Below are positions 47,637-62,474 of a stretch of 64,000 nucleotides of DNA, piece by piece. Positions within the stretch are counted from its first letter, which is position 1. Each line of letters opens with the position of its first letter. Position numbers and translations under genes: made by a program. The notes under the pieces were generated by a model that was not told where the DNA came from, ran no database searches, and saw only the letters and a list, made by a program, of their open reading frames with translations. The DNA is from Deltaproteobacteria bacterium. Lineage in GTDB: Bacteria; Myxococcota; UBA727; VGSZ01. The stretch spans positions 645,519 through 709,518 of the forward strand of contig JACOUT010000009.1 in NCBI GenBank assembly GCA_016177705.1, written 5' to 3'.

Positions 47637-48559
47637 GACCCGCCCCCCGGCGCCGTCTTCACCGCGCGGCGTGCCAGCAGGTTGAGCACGAGCGTGAGCA
47701 CGAACAGCGCCGCGCCGACGACGAAGATGGTCCTGCTCGCGAGCGTGCCGGCGGCGACGTCGCCCAGGCTGACCTGCACGATGAAGGCGGTCATGGTCTC
47801 GATCGGGACGCGCGGATCGAGCGTCAGGCGCGGCTCTTGTCCGGCGGCGATGGCGACGATCATGGTCTCGCCGACGGCGCGACCGAGCGCCAGAGTGCCG
47901 GCGGCGACGATGCCCGAGCGCGCCGCCGGCAAGACCACGCGCAGGATGGTCGGCACCCGCCCGGCGCCGAGCGCCCAGGCGCCCTCGCGCTGCGGCATCG
48001 GCACCGCGCGCAGCGCGTCGTCGGAGAGCGAGGCGACCAGCGGCAGGATCATCACGCCCATCACCAAGCCGGGCGAGAGCGCGTTGAAGCCGGCCAGGCC
48101 GGGCACCACGCGCTGGAGCGCCGGCGTGACGACGAGGAGCGCGAAGGCACCGTAGACGAGCGTCGGCACGCCCGCGAGCACCTCGAGCAACGGCTTGAGC
48201 ACGCGGCGCGCCCCATCGGGCGCGAGCTCCGCCAGGAACACGGCCGCGAGCAGGCCCAGCGGCACGGCGACCAACATCGCGATCCCCGAGGTCAGCGCGG
48301 TGCCAGCGATGAGCGGCCAGATGCCGTAACGCGGCGACGAGAACAGCGGCGTCCACTGCGTGTCGAACAGGAAGGCGCGCAGGCCCACCTCACGGAAGAA
48401 CGCGACGCTCTCGCCGGCGAGCACCAGCACGATGCCCACGGTGGTCACGACGCTCACGCCCGCGCACGCGAGCAACGCAAGCTCGACCAGCCGCTCGCGC
48501 ACCGGGGCCGCTCGCAGCGCCCGCCCGTGGACACCCAGGACCAGCTCGCTCGGCACCAC
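47633..48559 (-). CDS. pstC: Phosphate ABC transporter permease PstC
   Basis: A 308-residue permease starting at GTG 48559, five bases behind AAGGAGG. Six membrane helices, with the PstC features '[29 protein letters not shown]' and the cytoplasmic loop '[25 protein letters not shown]'. A longer frame extending to 48688 would run through the pstS tail and lacks a ribosome-binding site. Works with PstA in phosphate import. Confidence 0.95.
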
Positions 48560-48578
48560 GCGGACCTCCTTGGTCCCG

Positions 48579-49598
48579 CTAGCCTTCACCGGAGAGCAAC
48601 TGCAGCACCGTGACGCCGACGCGCGACCCTTGCCCGCCGTAGGCGGAGCCGAGCGTGCGCGCGGTGAAGCGCTTGGAGGCCAGCTCATAGGCGCGCGCCG
48701 GCAACGGCACGTAGCCGACCTCGCTCGACAGCGCCGCGCCCTTGGTGAGGAAGGTCGAGACGAACGCCTGCACCTCGGGCCGGTCGGCCGCGGCGTGCTC
48801 GACGTAGATCAGGAGCGGGCGGGACAGAGGCTGGTAGCTGCCGTCGAGCACCGTCTGCTTGCTCGGCAGCACCGGGCCGGCGCCGTTGTCTGCGCGCCCG
48901 TCGTCGATCGCGACCAGCTTGAGCAGCGCCGCGTTCTCTTCCGCGTAGGCGAGCCCGAAGAAGCCGAGCGCCAGACGATCGCCCGCGACGCCCTTGACCA
49001 GCACGTTGTCGTCTTCACTCGAGGTGTAGTCGCCGCGGCTCTCGTGCTCTTTGCCGACGATCGCCTGGGTGAAGTAGTCGTAGGTACCCGAGTCGACGCC
49101 CGCGCCGAACAGGTGGATCTCGTCGTCGGGCCAACCGGCACGCACCTGGCTCCAGCGCGTGATGGTGCGCTGCGCCGCCGGCTGCCAGAGCTTGTTGAGC
49201 TCCGCGACCGTCATCGACGACGCCCAGGTGTTGCCGGGGTGCACGACCACGGCCAGGCCGTCGTAGGCCACCGGCAGCTCGATGAAGCGGATGCCCTTCC
49301 TCTCGCAGGCCTCCACCTCGACCGACTTGATGGGGCGCGAGGCGTTCGCGATCGCGATCTCACCCGCGCACAGCCTCTTCATGCCGCCGCCGGTCCCCGA
49401 CACACCGACGATGACGCGCGCGCCGGTGGCCTTGCCGGTCTCCTCTGCGACGGCTTCGGCGATCGGCAGCACCGTGCTCGAGCCATCGACGGCGACGGGC
49501 AGCGCCTTGGCCAGCGGGTTGGCGGACGGCGCGGACTTGCTGCACGAGCCGGCGGCGAGTACGAGCGGCAGCAGCAGTGCGAACGACGGGCGGCACAT
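48579..49598 (-). CDS. pstS: Phosphate-binding lipoprotein PstS
   Basis: A 339-residue substrate-binding lipoprotein: signal, lipobox AAGSC, then '[17 protein letters not shown]', the phosphate-binding '[17 protein letters not shown]' and '[18 protein letters not shown]'. The ATG at 49598 follows GGAGGTG. Anchored lipoprotein PstS is usual for some groups, whereas enterobacterial PstS is soluble. It delivers phosphate to PstC/PstA. Follows phoR by 54 bases, so it may also have its own promoter. Confidence 0.95.
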
Positions 49599-49652
49599 AG
49601 GCACCTCCAAGGGGGTGCTGAAACGTACCGACTGCTCCGTGGCGTTTCGGTG

Positions 49653-51431
49653 TCAGCTCGGTGCCGTCTTGGCCGCACCGGCCCTGGGCAGCTCCACCCA
49701 GAACAGCGAGCCGCGCCCGGGCGCCGCGCCGACGCCGACGTGGCCGCCTTGCGCCTCCACCAGGTGCTTGACGATGGCGAGGCCGAGCCCCGTGCCGCCG
49801 GCCTCGCGCGAGCGCCCTGCATCCACTCGGTAGAAGCGCTCGAACAGCCGTGGCCAGTGGTGCGGCTCGATGCCGGGGCCGTCGTCGTGCACCTCGAGGC
49901 GCCAGCCGGCGTCGGTCTGCTGCGCCCGCACGACGATGGTGCCGCCGGGCGGCGTGTACTTGAGGGCGTTGTCGAGCAGGTTGACCAGCACCTGCTCGAG
50001 CGCCGAGGGGTCGCCGTGCGCGATCGCCGCCTGATCGGCCTCGACGACGATGCGCTGGTCGCGGGCCCGCGCGCGATCCTGCAAGGCGGTGCGGACCTTG
50101 TCGCAGAGTGGCCCAAGCGCGACGTCGACCGGCTCGAGCCGCAGCGCACCCGACTCGATGCGCGCGAGATCGAGCAGGTCGGCGAGGATGCGGGCCAAGC
50201 GTTCGGCGTTTCGGTCGATGGCCTCGACGAAGGAGCGGGCGCGCGCGTGGTCGTCGATGGCGCCGAGCAGCAGCGTCTCGGCGTTGGCGCGGATGACCGC
50301 GGCCGGCGTGCGCAGCTCGTGGGACACGTTGGCGACGAAGTCGCGCCGCATGCGCTCGAGGCGGCGCACCTCGGTGACATCGTGCAAGACCAGCACGACG
50401 CCCCCCGCGCCCCTGGTCGGCGCCGCAGACGCCGCCAGCGTGCGACCGGCGCCTCCCGAGGTCGCGACCTCGCCGGTCGCGACCTCGCCCGCGCTCGCCG
50501 CCGTCACCAGGTCGGCGAGCGTAGGGGCGCGCACCAGCGCGAGCAGGCTGTTGCCGGCGGGGTCACCCTCGATGGCGAGCAGCCGACGCGCGGCCGGGTT
50601 GACCAACTTCACCTGCCCATCCCTATCGAGGGCCACCACGCCCTCCTTCATGGCCTCGAGCACGGCGCCGAGCCGGCCCCGCTCCTCGGCGAGCGCCGCG
50701 ACGCTACGGTCGAGCTCGGCGGCCAGTTGCTCGAGCGTGCCGCGCAGGCCGACGATCTCGTCGGCGCCGGGACCATCGGCGCCCTCGGCGGCGCCCCCAG
50801 CGGCCAGCGCGGAGAGCGAGCGCGCGTGCGCGACCAGCTCGCGCAGCGTCCGGGTCATCACCTGGGAGGCCGCGCTGCTCATGGCCACGGCGACGCCGAG
50901 CCCCACCAGACCGGCGAGCACCACCAGCATGCGCAGGCGCGCGCTCGCCTGCTCCACGACCGTGATGGGCAGCGCGACGCGTACCACCCGGACCTGATCG
51001 CCTTCGATCGAGCGCGCCGCGTACATCATCTCCTCGTCGACGGTGGCACTGCGACGCTGGTCGTGGCCCCTGCCCGCGCGCAGCGCCTCCTGCACCTCGG
51101 TGCGATCGGCGTGATTGCTAGCGGCCGGCAGCTCAGTGAGCGTGAGGCGCGAGTCGCCGGCGACCGTGCCGTCAAGCCGGATGAGCGTGACGCGCGCCTG
51201 CAGCGCGGCGCCGAGCTCGTCCGCCAACAGATCAGCGGGGCCTGCGCCCGAAGGCTGCGCGCGCACGACCGCGATGCAGGCGGCGTCGAGCTGTCGCTCG
51301 AGGTCGTCCTGCAAATGCGACAGCAGCCACGCGCGCAGCTCGCGCTCGGCGACCATGCCGGTGACGAGCACGACGAGCGCCACCACCGCGACCGACGCGA
51401 CGAACAGCTTGCCGCGCGCGCGCAGCTTCAC
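49653..51431 (-). CDS. phoR: Phosphate sensor histidine kinase PhoR
   Basis: A membrane histidine kinase of 592 residues from the GTG at 51431; an ATG at 51500 would overlap phoB and add a polar extension. Membrane helix (about 9-27), a periplasmic domain (about 30-165), a second helix with HAMP-like segment, a PAS region ('LEAMKEGVVALDRDGQVKLVNPAARRLL'), HisKA with the phosphorylated His in 'FVANVSHELRTPAAVI' and an HATPase domain ('VLVNLLDNALKYTPPGG', 'DDGPGIEP', 'GGTGLGLAIVKHLVEAQGG'). It phosphorylates PhoB when phosphate is scarce. The large periplasmic domain is unlike E. coli PhoR. Confidence 0.92.
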   Translation of the reverse strand: MKLRARGKLFVASVAVVALVVLVTGMVAERELRAWLLSHLQDDLERQLDAACIAVVRAQPSGAGPADLLADELGAALQARVTLIRLDGTVAGDSRLTLTELPAASNHADRTEVQEALRAGRGHDQRRSATVDEEMMYAARSIEGDQVRVVRVALPITVVEQASARLRMLVVLAGLVGLGVAVAMSSAASQVMTRTLRELVAHARSLSALAAGGAAEGADGPGADEIVGLRGTLEQLAAELDRSVAALAEERGRLGAVLEAMKEGVVALDRDGQVKLVNPAARRLLAIEGDPAGNSLLALVRAPTLADLVTAASAGEVATGEVATSGGAGRTLAASAAPTRGAGGVVLVLHDVTEVRRLERMRRDFVANVSHELRTPAAVIRANAETLLLGAIDDHARARSFVEAIDRNAERLARILADLLDLARIESGALRLEPVDVALGPLCDKVRTALQDRARARDQRIVVEADQAAIAHGDPSALEQVLVNLLDNALKYTPPGGTIVVRAQQTDAGWRLEVHDDGPGIEPHHWPRLFERFYRVDAGRSREAGGTGLGLAIVKHLVEAQGGHVGVGAAPGRGSLFWVELPRAGAAKTAPS

Positions 51432-51456
51432 GACCGGGCCCCGTGTCGGCCCGGGC

Positions 51457-52170
51457 TCACCCTTGCTCCTGCGTCGGGCTGTGCCGAAAGCGATAGCCAA
51501 CCCCGCGCAAGGTCTCGATGTAGTCGGCGGCGGCGCCGAGCTTCTCGCGCAGCCGCTTGACGTGGGTGTCGACGGTGCGGGTGGTGACGTCGGCGGTGAT
51601 GCCCCACACGTCGTCGAGCAGCCGCTCGCGCGTCTGCACGCGGCCGCGCCGCTCGAGCAACAGCGCGAGCAAGCGGAACTCGAGCGCGGTGAGCGCGACC
51701 TCAGCGCCGTCGATCGTCACCCGATGCGCCGCCGCATCGAGCGTGAGCGCGCCGAACCGGATGGCGGCATGGTCGGCCGCAGGCGCCGGTGGCGCGGCGG
51801 CGCTGCGCCGCAGGATCGCTTGCACGCGCAGCAGCAGCTCGCGCACCGAGAACGGCTTGATCAGGTAGTCGTCCGCGCCCACCTCGAAGCCGAGCACCCG
51901 GTCGATCTCCTCGCCGCGCGCGGTCAACATCAGCACTGGTACGTCCCGCAGCGCGGCGTCCTGCCGAAGGCGCCTACACACCTCGAGGCCCGAGACGTCC
52001 GGCAGCATGACGTCGAGCAGCACCAGGTCCGGGCGACGTTGCTGTGCCGTCTCGAGGGCGGCCGCGCCGGTGCAGGCGGTCACCGTGGTGTAGCCCTGAC
52101 CCTCGAGGTTGTAGGCGAGGGTCGCGGCCAAGTCGGCCTCGTCGTCCACGATGAGGAGGTGCGCGCCCAT
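51457..52170 (-). CDS. phoB: Phosphate response regulator PhoB
   Basis: A 237-residue OmpR-family regulator: receiver domain with DDE (9-11), phospho-acceptor Asp53, Thr and KPF; then a winged-helix domain ('LTALEFRLLALLLERRGRVQTRERLLDDVWG', 'VDTHVKRLREKLG', 'ETLRGVGYRF'). First gene of the pho-pst cluster, with a Pho-box-like sequence 23 bases upstream of its ATG, so it is probably autoregulated. Confidence 0.95.
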   Translation of the reverse strand: MGAHLLIVDDEADLAATLAYNLEGQGYTTVTACTGAAALETAQQRRPDLVLLDVMLPDVSGLEVCRRLRQDAALRDVPVLMLTARGEEIDRVLGFEVGADDYLIKPFSVRELLLRVQAILRRSAAAPPAPAADHAAIRFGALTLDAAAHRVTIDGAEVALTALEFRLLALLLERRGRVQTRERLLDDVWGITADVTTRTVDTHVKRLREKLGAAADYIETLRGVGYRFRHSPTQEQG

Positions 52171-57441: not shown

Positions 57442-58629
57442 TCATTGCAGGGTGTCGACGCAGGTTCGGTCATCCGCCGGCTTGCAGTTCTTGCCGAGCA
57501 GGCAACCGCCCTGCACGCAGGTGATGACGTCGCACTCGAAGTCGAGGGTGCAGGGGTGCCCGGACAGCTCGCACGCGCCGTAGATCGGGTTCGCCGGATC
57601 GCTGGTGTCGGCGCCGACGCAGCGGTCGCGCGGGCAGTCCGTGTCTTTGGTGCAGGAGCAGACGCCGAACCCCGCACCCTCGCGGGTGCGGCACTGCTGC
57701 TTGAGGCAAGCGCCGATGCCCGAGCACTCGGCCTCGACCGAGCACGGCACGTTGGTGTCGAGCTCGCAGTTGCCGACATCCGCACGCGGGCAGGTGCTGC
57801 CGGGCGGCCCCTCGGGGCAGTCCTCGTCGACCAGGCAGGAGCCCCCGGTACGCCCGCAGCTCCCCTCGACGCATGCCTCGGGCAGCGCGCACACCGGCAG
57901 CGTCGACGCCGGCAGGATGATGACGTCTTTGCACTCGTAGCCGTTCGGGCACGCCTGACCGCGCGAGCAGTCGACGCCGCAATAGGCGCCGCCGTTCACG
58001 GTGTCGAGCAGGCAGTAATTGCCGTCAGCGCCGCAGTCGTCGCTCTGCACGCCGCCCGAGCAGCCTCGGCAGTAGGGCCCGCGCGTGTCGCGCTCGCAGA
58101 TGCCCAGCGAGAGGTTACACAGCTCGCCGGGTCGACAGAGCGCGTCGCTCGTACAGGCCGCGTCGCACGAGCCGAGGCGGCCGCCGCCGGCGCCGATGCA
58201 CCCCTGCCCGATCAGGCAGTCGGCCTCGTCGCGGCACCCCGGGACGCACGACCAGGTCAGCACGTCGCAAATCTGCTTGTAGGGGCAGGCGGCGTCGGTG
58301 GAGCAGCAGCGCTCGGCGCCGCAGCCGGCACGCGCGTCGCAGTTGCCGGAGCGGCAGAACAGGCCCTCGCCGCAGTCGTCGTTGTCGTGGCAACCGGCGA
58401 CCACCTGGCAGCGCCCGATCGCATTGCAGGTCTCGTTGACGCCGCAGCCGCGGTTGTCGGTGCACAGGCAGCGACCGCTCGCTACGTCGCAGCGGTGGTA
58501 GGCATCGGTCGCGGTCTGGCACTGGGTGTCGAGGGTGCAGCGCGTCGTCACCGTCGGTGGGCAGGCGCCGACGACGGCGAGCGCGCCGACGACGAGGACG
58601 GCGCCGGCAGACGCAGCGGCCCGGCTCAC
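57442..58629 (-). CDS. Cys-rich surface lipoprotein, tandem paralogue
   Basis: A 395-residue lipoprotein (lipobox VGAC) consisting almost entirely of short Cys-rich modules of the C-x-Tyr/x-x-x-C and 'C--D-DCPxGxxC' type, including CCSTDAACPYKQICD, CDAACTSDALCRPGELCN and CSCTKDTDCPRDRC. Disulphide-stabilised repeats of this kind suggest an extended surface protein. The GTG overlaps the stop of the preceding gene (GTGA). It is clearly paralogous to the next gene upstream (shared phrases CPYKQICD/CPYRQICD, DTRGPYCRGCSGGVQSDDCG/DTRGPYCQGCSGGVASDDCG, 'DTDCPRDRC'). Confidence 0.82.
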   Translation of the reverse strand: MSRAAASAGAVLVVGALAVVGACPPTVTTRCTLDTQCQTATDAYHRCDVASGRCLCTDNRGCGVNETCNAIGRCQVVAGCHDNDDCGEGLFCRSGNCDARAGCGAERCCSTDAACPYKQICDVLTWSCVPGCRDEADCLIGQGCIGAGGGRLGSCDAACTSDALCRPGELCNLSLGICERDTRGPYCRGCSGGVQSDDCGADGNYCLLDTVNGGAYCGVDCSRGQACPNGYECKDVIILPASTLPVCALPEACVEGSCGRTGGSCLVDEDCPEGPPGSTCPRADVGNCELDTNVPCSVEAECSGIGACLKQQCRTREGAGFGVCSCTKDTDCPRDRCVGADTSDPANPIYGACELSGHPCTLDFECDVITCVQGGCLLGKNCKPADDRTCVDTLQ

Positions 58630-59864
58630 GGCAGCGGGACCGGCGTGGTCAGGAAGTCGTTGCAGTTGCGCCCGTCGGCCGGCGCGCAGTTCTGCCCGAT
58701 CAGGCAGCCGCCCTCGACGCAGGCGATGACGTCGCACTCGAAGTCGGCCAGGCACTCGTGGCCCGATAGCTCGCAGTGACCGCGCACCGGCGGCACGGCG
58801 GTGTTGTCCGCGCCCTCGCAGCGGTCGCGCGGGCAGTCGGTGTCGCGCGTGCAGGAGCAAAAGCCAGTGTTGTCACCCTCGCTGCCGAGGCACGCGATGC
58901 GGTTGCAGGTGCCTTCGGCGCAGTCGGTGTCGACCTCGCAGTCGATGCTCGGGTCGAGGTCGCAACTGCCGGCGCGCCCCGCGCGCTCCTTGCAGTCGCC
59001 AAAGGGCGGCCCCTGCGGGCAGTCCTCGTCCACCGCGCAGGGCCCACCGGTGCGCGCGCAGTTGCCCTGGGGCTGGCCGTCGGGCACCACGCACGCCTCG
59101 GGGAACAGGCAGATGTAGGTGCTCGGGATGATGACGACGTCGGTGCAGGAGTAGCCGTTCGGGCACGCCTGCTGGCGCGCGCAGTCGACGCCGCAGAACT
59201 CGCCGCCGTTGACGCTGTCGACCAGGCAGTAGTTGCCGAAGCCGCCGCAGTCGTCGCTGGCGACGCCGCCCGAGCAGCCCTGGCAGTAGGGCCCGCGTGT
59301 GTCGTGCTCGCAGACGCCCTCGCCGAGGTTGCAGATGGAGCCGAGCGGGCACAGGCTGTCGTCGGTGCACTGGTCGGCGCACACGCCGAGCCGGCCGAAG
59401 CCCGCGCCCACGCAGCCCTCGCCCTGCAGCACCAGGCAGTCGGCGTTGTCGCGGCAGCCGGTGACGCAGGAGAGCGTCAGGCTGTCGCAGATCTGCCGAT
59501 AGGGGCACTGGTCGTCGAGCGTGCAGCACGCTTGGCCCTCGGCCGGGTTGCACTCGGCGACGCTCAGGCACTGGCTGGTCGTGACGTCACAAAACAGCCC
59601 GCCGGTGCCGCCCTCGCCGCAGTCATCGTTGCTCTGGCAGCCGGCGATGGTCTGGCAGCGGCCGAGCGCGTTGCACACCTCGTTGTCGCCGCAGCCGCGA
59701 TCGTCCTTGCAGATGCAGTAGCCGGTCTCGAGGTTGCAGCCGGTGAAGCCCTCGCCAGTGGCGTCGCACTGCGCGTCCAGGGTGCAGGGGCCCTCTTGCA
59801 CGCACTGACCGCCCGCGAGCAGCGCGCACGAGCAAAGCGCCAGGGCGACGAGCGCGCGCGTCAC
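58626..59864 (-). CDS. Cys-rich surface lipoprotein, tandem paralogue
   Basis: A 412-residue protein with signal ending near LLAGGQC. Same module order as its neighbour: CTLDAQC, CGDNEVCNALGRC, CQSNDDCGEGG, CCTLDDQCPYRQICD, CADQCTDDSLCPLGSICN, 'DTRGPYCQGCSGG...', CGVDCARQQACPNGYSC and CSCTRDTDCPRDRC. The paralogy indicates a tandem duplication. The GTG starts one base after the preceding stop. Probably a cell-surface, disulphide-rich, calcium- or ligand-binding protein; no function is known. Confidence 0.82.
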   Translation of the reverse strand: MTRALVALALCSCALLAGGQCVQEGPCTLDAQCDATGEGFTGCNLETGYCICKDDRGCGDNEVCNALGRCQTIAGCQSNDDCGEGGTGGLFCDVTTSQCLSVAECNPAEGQACCTLDDQCPYRQICDSLTLSCVTGCRDNADCLVLQGEGCVGAGFGRLGVCADQCTDDSLCPLGSICNLGEGVCEHDTRGPYCQGCSGGVASDDCGGFGNYCLVDSVNGGEFCGVDCARQQACPNGYSCTDVVIIPSTYICLFPEACVVPDGQPQGNCARTGGPCAVDEDCPQGPPFGDCKERAGRAGSCDLDPSIDCEVDTDCAEGTCNRIACLGSEGDNTGFCSCTRDTDCPRDRCEGADNTAVPPVRGHCELSGHECLADFECDVIACVEGGCLIGQNCAPADGRNCNDFLTTPVPLP

Positions 59865-59865
59865 G

Positions 59866-60960
59866 TCAGAGCACGTCCTGGCACAACAGGCCGTCTTGCG
59901 GGCCGCAGGTCGAGCCGATCAGGCAGCCGCCGTCGACGCAGTCGCGCCCGGCCGGACAGCCGACGTCGGGGCCACAACTGCAAAACCCGGTCTCCTGGTT
60001 CTCGCCGGGCGCGTCCGCGCTGCACGCGCTCGTGCCCGGGCACTCGCCGCCGCCGCGGGTGCACGACACGTCGCTGGTCGAGACCAGCAGGAAGCACGAG
60101 TAGCCGCGCGGGCATGGGTTGGCGACGTCGTCGCAGTCGGTGGAACCGCAGAAGAAGTCGCCGCAGTAGGGCGTGCACTCGCCGGGCAGGAAGCTGGCGC
60201 CCACGCAGGTCCCCACTGGGCACTCGGCGTCGGTGTAGCAGGGCAAGCGCACGCAAATGCCGCGCTCGCAGTCGGTGTCGGCGTCGCACGACGACGGTGC
60301 GATCGAGTTGTCGATCAGGCATGCGTCGGAGCACTGGTTACCGAGCGAAGTCGGGTCGCAGCGCTGGCACAGCACCGCGGCGTCGGCGTGCGGGCGGCAG
60401 ACGTTGCCCTGGCAGATCTCGCCGTACTCACAGAAGCCGTTGCCGTTGCACGCGCCCGGCGTCGGGTCGCAGCTGCCGTTGATGCAGGGGTCGCCCATCG
60501 GGCAGTCGCCGTCATCCTTGCAGCCGGGGGTGCACTGGCTGCCTTGGCAGAAGAAGCCGTACGGGCAGTGGCTGTCCATCAAGCACGACACCTGCGCCGA
60601 CAAGGTCACGCACTGGCCGGCAGAGGCCGAGTAGACGTTGTCGTCGGTGCCGCCGCCGCCCGGGTGGGGCGAGCGCGTGTCGCAGATGGCGGCTGGGTTG
60701 TCGGCCGTGCGGCAGTCGGCGTCGGTCAGACACTCGGTTTTCGCCTGGCAGGAGCCGGCGAGGTTGCAGAACTCGGAGGCGTCGCAGGCGCCGTCGTCGG
60801 TGCAGCGACAGACGCCGTTGGCGGTGTCGCAGCGGCGGAAGTCGCCGCAGTCGAGGTCGCTGGCGCAGCCGGTCTCCTCGATGTTGCCGCGCGGACAGGC
60901 GGTGAGGAGGGGCGCCGCCGCGAGCAGGGCTGCGACGAACAGGTGACGCGCGTGCATCAT
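59866..60960 (-). CDS. Cys-rich surface lipoprotein
   Basis: A 364-residue lipoprotein (lipobox LLTAC) with Cys-rich modules similar in style but more divergent than the following pair ('CASDLDCGDFRRCDTANGVC', 'CLMDSHCPYGFFCQGSQCTPGCKDDGDCPMGDPCINGSC', 'CGPDVGCPAGRDC'). The ATG overlaps the stop of the vWA gene by one base (TGATG), so it is the second gene of the operon. A Gly-rich turn (HPGGGGTDDN) interrupts the repeats. Confidence 0.82.
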   Translation of the reverse strand: MMHARHLFVAALLAAAPLLTACPRGNIEETGCASDLDCGDFRRCDTANGVCRCTDDGACDASEFCNLAGSCQAKTECLTDADCRTADNPAAICDTRSPHPGGGGTDDNVYSASAGQCVTLSAQVSCLMDSHCPYGFFCQGSQCTPGCKDDGDCPMGDPCINGSCDPTPGACNGNGFCEYGEICQGNVCRPHADAAVLCQRCDPTSLGNQCSDACLIDNSIAPSSCDADTDCERGICVRLPCYTDAECPVGTCVGASFLPGECTPYCGDFFCGSTDCDDVANPCPRGYSCFLLVSTSDVSCTRGGGECPGTSACSADAPGENQETGFCSCGPDVGCPAGRDCVDGGCLIGSTCGPQDGLLCQDVL

Positions 60961-62336
60961 CAGCCCCCGCACCGATCCCGCTTCGCGAGCAGGTAGCGGA
61001 TCTGCACGGCGCTGCCGGGCGCTGGCAGGTAGGCGTTGTCGAAGCGGATGCTGTTGGTGCCCGGTTCGTACTGCCAGTTCTCGGTCGCGTCCTCGTTGAC
61101 GCGCGGCACCAGCGCCTCGCCGCCGTCGCCCGAACCGAGGCCGCGCGCGGTCACGCACACCGGCCCGTCGATCGGGTCCGAGGTGTCGCCGTTGTCGTCG
61201 CAGTCGATGGCGATGTCGTCGGCGGTGAACAGCGTGGTGTCGGTGCCGGCCTCGATGGCGCAGAAGGGACGAGACAGGGTGAACTTGCGCAACAGGCCCG
61301 CGGCGTTGGCGCCGAGCGCGTCGAGCGCGGTCGAGTAGTCGGCGGCGCACATGTTGGCGATGACGCCGCCGGTGCGGCACGCCAGCTCGATGTAGCGGCC
61401 GCCGGTCTCGGCGTGCGAGGCGCCGTCGTTCGGGTCGTCGGCCTCCTCGTCGGTGCAGCCATTCCTGAAGTTGCGCAGCGCCTCGATGAGCGCGGCGGCG
61501 CGCGCGTCGTCGTTGGCGACGCTCGAGTCGAAGGTGGTCTCGAGGATGCCGCACACGTCGGTGACGTCGGCCGGCGGGTCAGTGGCGGGGTAGCCGGTGA
61601 TGGCCGCGATCGCGACCTTGTTCTCGTTGCCGGCGCCCTTCAGGCCCTCGAACAGGCGCTGGAAGTAGCGCACCGGCGGCCCGTCTTGCTTGGCGCCCTC
61701 CTCCTCGTCGGAGACGAAGATGACGTAGAGCGAGGCCTCGGTGCGCAAGAAGCCGGCGTTCTCGGCGGGGATGGTCGCGGGGTCGGGCAGCGAGGTCGCC
61801 GGGTCGATGTCCCACGCGCCGAGCGCGCGCGCCGCCTGCTCGAAGCCCTCCTCGAGCGAGGAGCCGTCGATGCCGACGCTGACGAGCTTCCTGAACACGA
61901 GCTGCGCCGGGCACGCGTCCAACAGGGCCGCCTCGGCCTCGCTGTCGGTCATGCCAGTGACGTCGACGGTCGGGTCGCCGCACGGCACCGTGTTGTCGAT
62001 GAAGCGGCAGCCGGCGCAGCCGGCGACGTCGGGGCCGACATAGGTGCGCAACACGCCCATCTCGGCGTCATCGGAGGTGACGATGCCGATGTGGTAGTCG
62101 ACCTGGCTGGTGATGAGCTGATTGAAGAACTGGTTGAAGCGCGTTGCGATCTTGAACTGCTCGGCCGCCATCGACTCCGAGTTGTCGATGATCCAGAGGA
62201 TGTCGACCTGGGCCGCGGCTTTTTGGTCGAAGACGTCGACCTGATCGACGGCTTCGGGCACCTGGTACACGATCTCGGTGCAACGGCAGCCCGAGAGGGG
62301 GAGGGTGGCAAGCAACGCGAGCGCGAGCAGCCGCAT
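60960..62336 (-). CDS. von Willebrand A-domain lipoprotein
   Basis: A 458-residue lipoprotein: lipobox LSGC, then a vWA domain whose metal-ion-dependent adhesion site begins DILWIIDNSESM (D-x-S-x-S), followed by 'IGIVTSDDAEMGVLRTYVG', 'CGDPTVDVTGM' and 'LYVIFVSDEEEGAKQDGPP'. vWA domains mediate protein-protein contacts at surfaces. AAGGAG lies before the ATG at 62336. First of four genes, followed by three Cys-rich lipoproteins, suggesting they assemble at the outer surface. The promoter should lie in the 138-base gap before the divergent helicase gene. Confidence 0.87.
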   Translation of the reverse strand: MRLLALALLATLPLSGCRCTEIVYQVPEAVDQVDVFDQKAAAQVDILWIIDNSESMAAEQFKIATRFNQFFNQLITSQVDYHIGIVTSDDAEMGVLRTYVGPDVAGCAGCRFIDNTVPCGDPTVDVTGMTDSEAEAALLDACPAQLVFRKLVSVGIDGSSLEEGFEQAARALGAWDIDPATSLPDPATIPAENAGFLRTEASLYVIFVSDEEEGAKQDGPPVRYFQRLFEGLKGAGNENKVAIAAITGYPATDPPADVTDVCGILETTFDSSVANDDARAAALIEALRNFRNGCTDEEADDPNDGASHAETGGRYIELACRTGGVIANMCAADYSTALDALGANAAGLLRKFTLSRPFCAIEAGTDTTLFTADDIAIDCDDNGDTSDPIDGPVCVTARGLGSGDGGEALVPRVNEDATENWQYEPGTNSIRFDNAYLPAPGSAVQIRYLLAKRDRCGG

Positions 62337-62474
62337 GGAAGCTCCTTGGTACCCTGGGTGTTTGCCGCTCCGATGGCGTCGGCACAAGCCCCGGGGCCCT
62401 GACGGATCCTCGGATTTTCGATGCTCGATGGTGGTTTACATCCGGCCGCGGATCGCTAGGGTCCGCGCGCCCTC

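Follow-up and report, generated by a model that had tools for sequence, protein, structure and literature searches.

Four minus-strand genes (57442–62336) in the window, the 64,000-nucleotide stretch of Myxococcota DNA analysed here, appear to encode one outer-membrane, metal-dependent adhesion complex, analogous to the gliding lipoprotein CglD but made of several chains, a reading to which we give a probability of roughly 0.6. The order of the genes is vWA lipoprotein, Cys-rich a, Cys-rich b1 and Cys-rich b2. That they constitute a functional unit is well supported by the conserved pairing of vWA and Cys genes, by the co-diversification of the partners and by the fact that this genome has Cys-family genes in the operon alone. 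The sequence-only reading had proposed that the set builds a surface assembly; the surface placement is likely: lipoboxes are present, the MIDAS residues are intact, the domains are arranged as in adhesins, and a long form of the operon includes partners with adhesive domains. The vWA-Cys set is probably an unnamed surface-adhesion complex of Myxococcota, and a literature search for the pairing found no description of it.

Layout of the Operon and Its Flanks

The features of the locus are as follows.

Gene 1, 60960..62336, minus strand: 458-aa lipoprotein, lipobox PLSGC, with a predicted vWA/MIDAS domain inserted in a small β domain built from N- and C-terminal parts.
Gene 2 (a), 59866..60960, minus strand: 364-aa Cys-rich lipoprotein, lipobox LTAC, 51 Cys.
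Gene 3 (b1), 58626..59864, minus strand: Cys-rich protein of 412 aa with 59 Cys, secreted and probably a lipoprotein; its lipobox, LLAGGQC, is irregular; GTG start.
Gene 4 (b2), 57442..58629, minus strand: 395-aa Cys-rich lipoprotein, lipobox VGAC, 57 Cys, GTG start.
Intergenic stretch of 138 bp, 62337..62474, no strand: lies between gene 1 and a divergent DEAD-box helicase gene (62475, plus strand) and contains the gene 1 Shine-Dalgarno sequence.

Base 60960 is common to genes 1 and 2 (1-bp overlap), base 59865 forms the gap between genes 2 and 3, and bases 58626–58629 are common to genes 3 and 4 (4-bp overlap), where the start of gene 4 and the stop of gene 3 together read GTGA. The four minus-strand genes, the two overlaps and the 1-base gap given in the sequence-only reading were exact to the base. 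The Shine-Dalgarno sequence 5' of gene 1, AAGGAG, is rated good, and the promoter of the operon presumably lies in the 138-bp stretch; a consensus scan found no sigma-70-type promoter and a scan for terminators found none, results that say little in this phylum. The neighbors, a divergent DEAD-box helicase upstream and a convergent histidine kinase downstream, are not part of the set, and no sorting or secretion gene is present inside the operon. That the genes are coding is supported by orthologues within the same taxonomic family (60–62% identity for gene 1) and by a Ka lower than Ks in comparisons of genes 1, 2, and 3 with orthologues of the sister genus; Ka is also lower than Ks between genes 3 and 4. 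Elsewhere in the window, a 1066-aa open frame on the plus strand (48360–51560) has no Pfam match at 0.001.

Gene 1 and Its Metal Site

The AlphaFold2 model of gene 1 is confident (pLDDT 87.3, pTM 0.84) and places strands 31–37 and 393–450 on either side of the inserted vWA domain, where they form the small β domain. According to this model and to comparison with PDB structures, the fold is vWA-like despite a score against Pfam PF00092 (14.5 bits) that is below the gathering score of 23.8. The best NCBIfam match, to NF052240 (E = 4.4e-15, 55.7 bits), covers residues 40–92 only and does not reach the curated cut-off of 700 bits, and the CglD profile NF033765 gives 25.1 bits at the operon locus, short of its cut-off of 400 bits. 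When the model of gene 1 was used in a PDB fold search, the top matches were the pilus adhesin PitA and many integrin β headpieces (E about 2e-5); because the TM-score is about 0.3, these represent a likeness of arrangement and not a close likeness, and there is no match to them in sequence. A Cys-containing insert at about residues 103–146 is confined to gene 1 and its near relatives.

The D-x-S-x-S metal site that had been recognized in the first gene corresponds to D51-x-S53-x-S55. Residues D51, S53, S/T55, E162, D210, and E211 are present in all 38 aligned sequences; in MIDAS loop 2 of this alignment E162 is invariant and there is no conserved Thr. The MIDAS sites of integrin β subunits have Glu in place of the usual Thr. 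E162 of gene 1 may coordinate the metal.

The Cys-rich Family

Cys accounts for about 14% of the residues in each of the other three products (51/364 in gene 2, 59/412 in gene 3, and 57/395 in gene 4). Pfam, NCBIfam, and PDB sequence searches gave genes 2–4 no name, and no Pfam or NCBIfam family was matched at its cut-off; gene 2 has weak matches to DUF7107 (E = 0.0033) and TIGR04201 (15 bits, cut-off 25). As judged from their sequences, genes 2–4 belong to one homologous family. Genes 2 and 3 are 36% identical and have a common C-terminal signature, C-x-I-G-x-x-C-x-P-x-x-G-x-x-C. When 27 proteins of the gene 3/4 type were aligned, the family proved to extend over the full length, with almost 60 columns that are invariant and mostly Cys, and with the fixed motifs GPYC..C, NxCL...FCGVDC..G..CP.GY.C, and, at the C terminus, C.IG.NCAP..G..C. 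The proteins had previously been seen as Cys modules almost throughout; they are indeed Cys-rich, but their modules are not just generic ones.

In the tree, genes 3 and 4 group together (support 100/97) to the exclusion of the one 'b' gene that the sister genus has, which indicates that their tandem duplication is recent; nucleotide repeats of 73–82% recur at a spacing of ~1.2 kb, and 57 of 59 Cys columns are held in common. The orthologues of gene 2 are the 'a' genes, the first Cys genes of related operons (support 99/98). The tree therefore suggests that the ancestral operon in this lineage was vWA-a-b. The view of the last two genes as tandem paralogues thus stands, but the homology is not limited to them and includes gene 2. 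Likewise, the three Cys-rich lipoproteins counted earlier comprise two that are sure, genes 2 and 4 with lipoboxes as ordinary as that of gene 1, and one that is likely, because gene 3 has Gln at −1 in an irregular lipobox, LLAGGQC. A structural model of the Cys modules, suggested in the sequence-only reading, was obtained for gene 3 with low overall confidence (pLDDT 76.5, pTM 0.46), and a PDB fold search with it gave nothing below E = 0.3, so that no known fold was matched.

Conservation of the vWA-Cys Pairing

Full-length orthologues of gene 1 were found in eleven relatives (39–64% identity), with Cys genes adjoining where the contig allows, and in a wider set the vWA and Cys genes are directly adjacent in many Myxococcota families, so the pairing recurs in the phylum, where the earlier reading had suggested looking for the same gene order. 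Among 144 vWA genes, a redundant set over two collections, 59 have a Cys-family gene directly next downstream and 54 more have one within 9 kb on the same strand, the Cys genes being assigned from tblastn and HMM matches in GC-rich DNA, where antisense frames stay open. The other 31 have no detected downstream Cys partner; some of these lie at contig ends, and in others a different Cys-rich gene lies on the upstream side. Of the genomes sampled, 103 of 193 carry the Cys family, as do 62 of 90 genera, and the Cys profile search placed it in this genome solely in the operon.

The linkage was also examined in reverse, by reading about 9 kb on either side of each locus chosen by the Cys profile alone. 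A same-strand vWA gene is present at 18 of 20 such loci; because 9 of the 20 contigs had already served to find the Cys family, the independent figure is 9 of 11, with the vWA gene within about 6 kb. The Cys homologues are therefore not scattered apart from vWA genes, the pattern that had been named as speaking against the operon. In one family whose genomes contain several operons each, the distances among vWA paralogues and among their Cys partners correlate (r = 0.91), and permutation of the Cys partners within genomes gave p = 0.0009, with 768 arrangements possible. Because partners were permuted only inside genomes, the co-diversification does not simply reflect shared species history.

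The operon has two forms. (i) The compact form consists of a vWA gene followed by one to three Cys genes. (ii) In the long form, three genes come between the vWA gene and the one or two Cys-family genes. Their products are, in order, a protein of 480 aa that has HYDIN-type Ig and PKD domains, a Cys-rich protein of 490 aa similar to the TraA stalk, and a TIG-repeat protein of 1000 aa; the first Cys-family gene starts about 6.0 kb past the vWA stop. The carriers of the long form include, by record name, several Archangium and Myxococcaceae MAGs, and in the long operon of one Archangium MAG all five genes encode lipoboxes (5/5).

Proposed Function

In the adhesion complex that we propose, gene 1 would supply the head that binds the ligand: its vWA domain has a complete metal site, with an invariant Glu where Thr is usual, and the small β domain around it could pass on ligand binding. 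The products of genes 2–4 would be partners rich in disulphides and rod-like in shape, tethered to the same membrane, that hold, shield or extend the head. Exposed at the surface as a physical complex, the proteins would bind a surface, matrix or another cell via a divalent cation. The combination present in CglD, a vWA head and a Cys-rich tail, would thus be distributed over separate lipoproteins. If this is correct, the Myxococcota possess, beside TraA, CglB/CglD, and pili, a widespread system for surface adhesion that has no name, with its Cys family in 103/193 sampled genomes. The Cys-rich protein family described here is without a name in the libraries searched, and the vWA-Cys pair and the MIDAS residues provide defined targets in cultured relatives such as Archangium.

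A more far-reaching version, which we regard as doubtful, is a phylum-wide multi-lipoprotein receptor resembling a dismantled integrin β, with a Glu-type MIDAS head, a hybrid-like β domain, Cys-rich lipoproteins as legs or ligand partners and, in some families, several specialized copies per genome. Gene 1 resembles the integrin β headpiece and the Gram-positive pilus adhesins PitA and SpaC in having a vWA-type domain inserted in a β domain, and its invariant E162 may be the counterpart of the Glu that integrin β has at the metal site. It differs from all three in that no sequence similarity was found, the TM-score is about 0.3, and the Cys-rich part is on separate proteins.

Comparison with Known Systems and Alternative Functions

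In the Bdellovibrio proteins Bd0875 and Bd1483, a β domain formed from both termini contains an inserted vWA domain (PMC11003981). Gene 1 is similar to these NF052240 adhesins in its lipobox, two-termini β domain, inserted vWA domain, and DxSxS motif with acidic residues in loop 3. It differs from them in scoring below the family cut-off and in having its own Cys-containing insert (~103–146), and no Cys-rich partner has been described for these adhesins; the cap over the MIDAS site has been described for Bd0875 only (PMC11003981). Bd0875 is needed for prey invasion (PMC11003981), and a prey-contact adhesin complex that acts in predation as Bd0875 does would fit the shared architecture and MIDAS motif and NF052240 being the top NCBIfam match of gene 1 (E = 4.4e-15). 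That match is partial, however (residues 40–92; 55.7 bits where 700 are required), and Bd1483, with the same architecture, had no role in prey invasion in the same study (PMC11003981). We consider predation an unlikely function.

CglD (NF033765, adventurous gliding motility lipoprotein) resembles the operon in having a vWA domain, homologous to that of gene 1, with its β region and then a Cys-rich part. Three CglD-type loci in this genome are over the cut-off (G000:C4:29266-33537, C15:146652-149498, and C17:363076-369312); the vWA regions of their products are homologous to gene 1 (E 1e-18 to 7e-35), and their C-terminal tails contain up to 19 Cys per 100 aa. CglD is, however, one chain of 1000–2000 aa, whereas the vWA and Cys-rich parts are on separate genes here. 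The CglD tail and genes 2–4 were compared and are not the same family. Gliding of Myxococcus is reported to involve CglB, a vWA adhesin at the cell surface (Islam et al. 2023, cited in PMC12282271 and PMC13104615). Gene 1, as a predicted vWA surface lipoprotein, resembles it by description alone, and no CglB model was among the profile matches. We know of no Cys-rich partner for CglB. The make-up shared with CglD, its three loci in this genome and the gliding role of CglB would be consistent with a part of the gliding-motility focal adhesion that does the work of CglB or CglD, but the CglD score of gene 1 (25 bits) falls far short of the 400-bit cut-off and, because CglD-type genes exist in the genome besides the operon, the latter would be redundant as a gliding part; we judge this role improbable.

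The Cys-rich repeats of TraA, the outer-membrane exchange receptor, have been proposed to form a rigid stalk (PMC3325183). A Cys gene of the long operon matches the stalk stretch of TraA (NF033759; TIGR04201 repeats). Unlike TraA, genes 1–4 have neither a PA14 domain nor MYXO-CTERM, and the TIGR04201 match in gene 2 is under the cut-off (15 versus 25 bits). A profile search did not find TraA in this genome, and control genomes gave no match either. A relationship of genes 2–4 to TraA was dropped, as there was no TraA match in genes 1–4 and none in the genome.

The lipoproteins could instead face the periplasm, with the vWA protein as a chaperone or assembly factor and the Cys-rich proteins as disulphide-rich scaffolds in envelope building. 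Lipoboxes alone are no proof of surface display, the operon is without a sorting or secretion gene, and vWA domains also act in intracellular and assembly roles. On the other hand, the domains carried by the partner proteins of the long form (TIG, PKD, HYDIN-type Ig, and TraA-like Cys repeats) all typify extracellular proteins, and we assign a periplasmic role a low probability. If unrelated lipoproteins were simply co-transcribed, with no function in common, the vWA relatives in which no Cys partner was detected (31/144) might be explained, but this is very improbable given that the pairing is kept across many families and in both operon forms and that the paralogues co-diversify.

Variant Arrangements

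Several further arrangements were observed. Hyalangium versicolor has a 987-aa lipoprotein (L157:5991-8951) in which six choice-of-anchor D domains are fused to a vWA domain of the gene 1 family; it looks as though the first two long-operon genes had been joined. A third arrangement, in Archangium and Myxococcaceae MAGs, places a Cys-rich gene of roughly 600 aa immediately upstream of the gene for a 480-aa vWA lipoprotein (L139, L137, L142-L146, L165, L170-L175, and L179). A matrixin-type metalloprotease is encoded directly upstream of vWA-Cys operons at L098:10293-11102 and L099:4251-5279, that of L099 being related to the myxosortase-dependent MXAN_2677/2678 family. Tandem vWA-Cys-vWA-Cys arrays are present at L098, L100, and L085.
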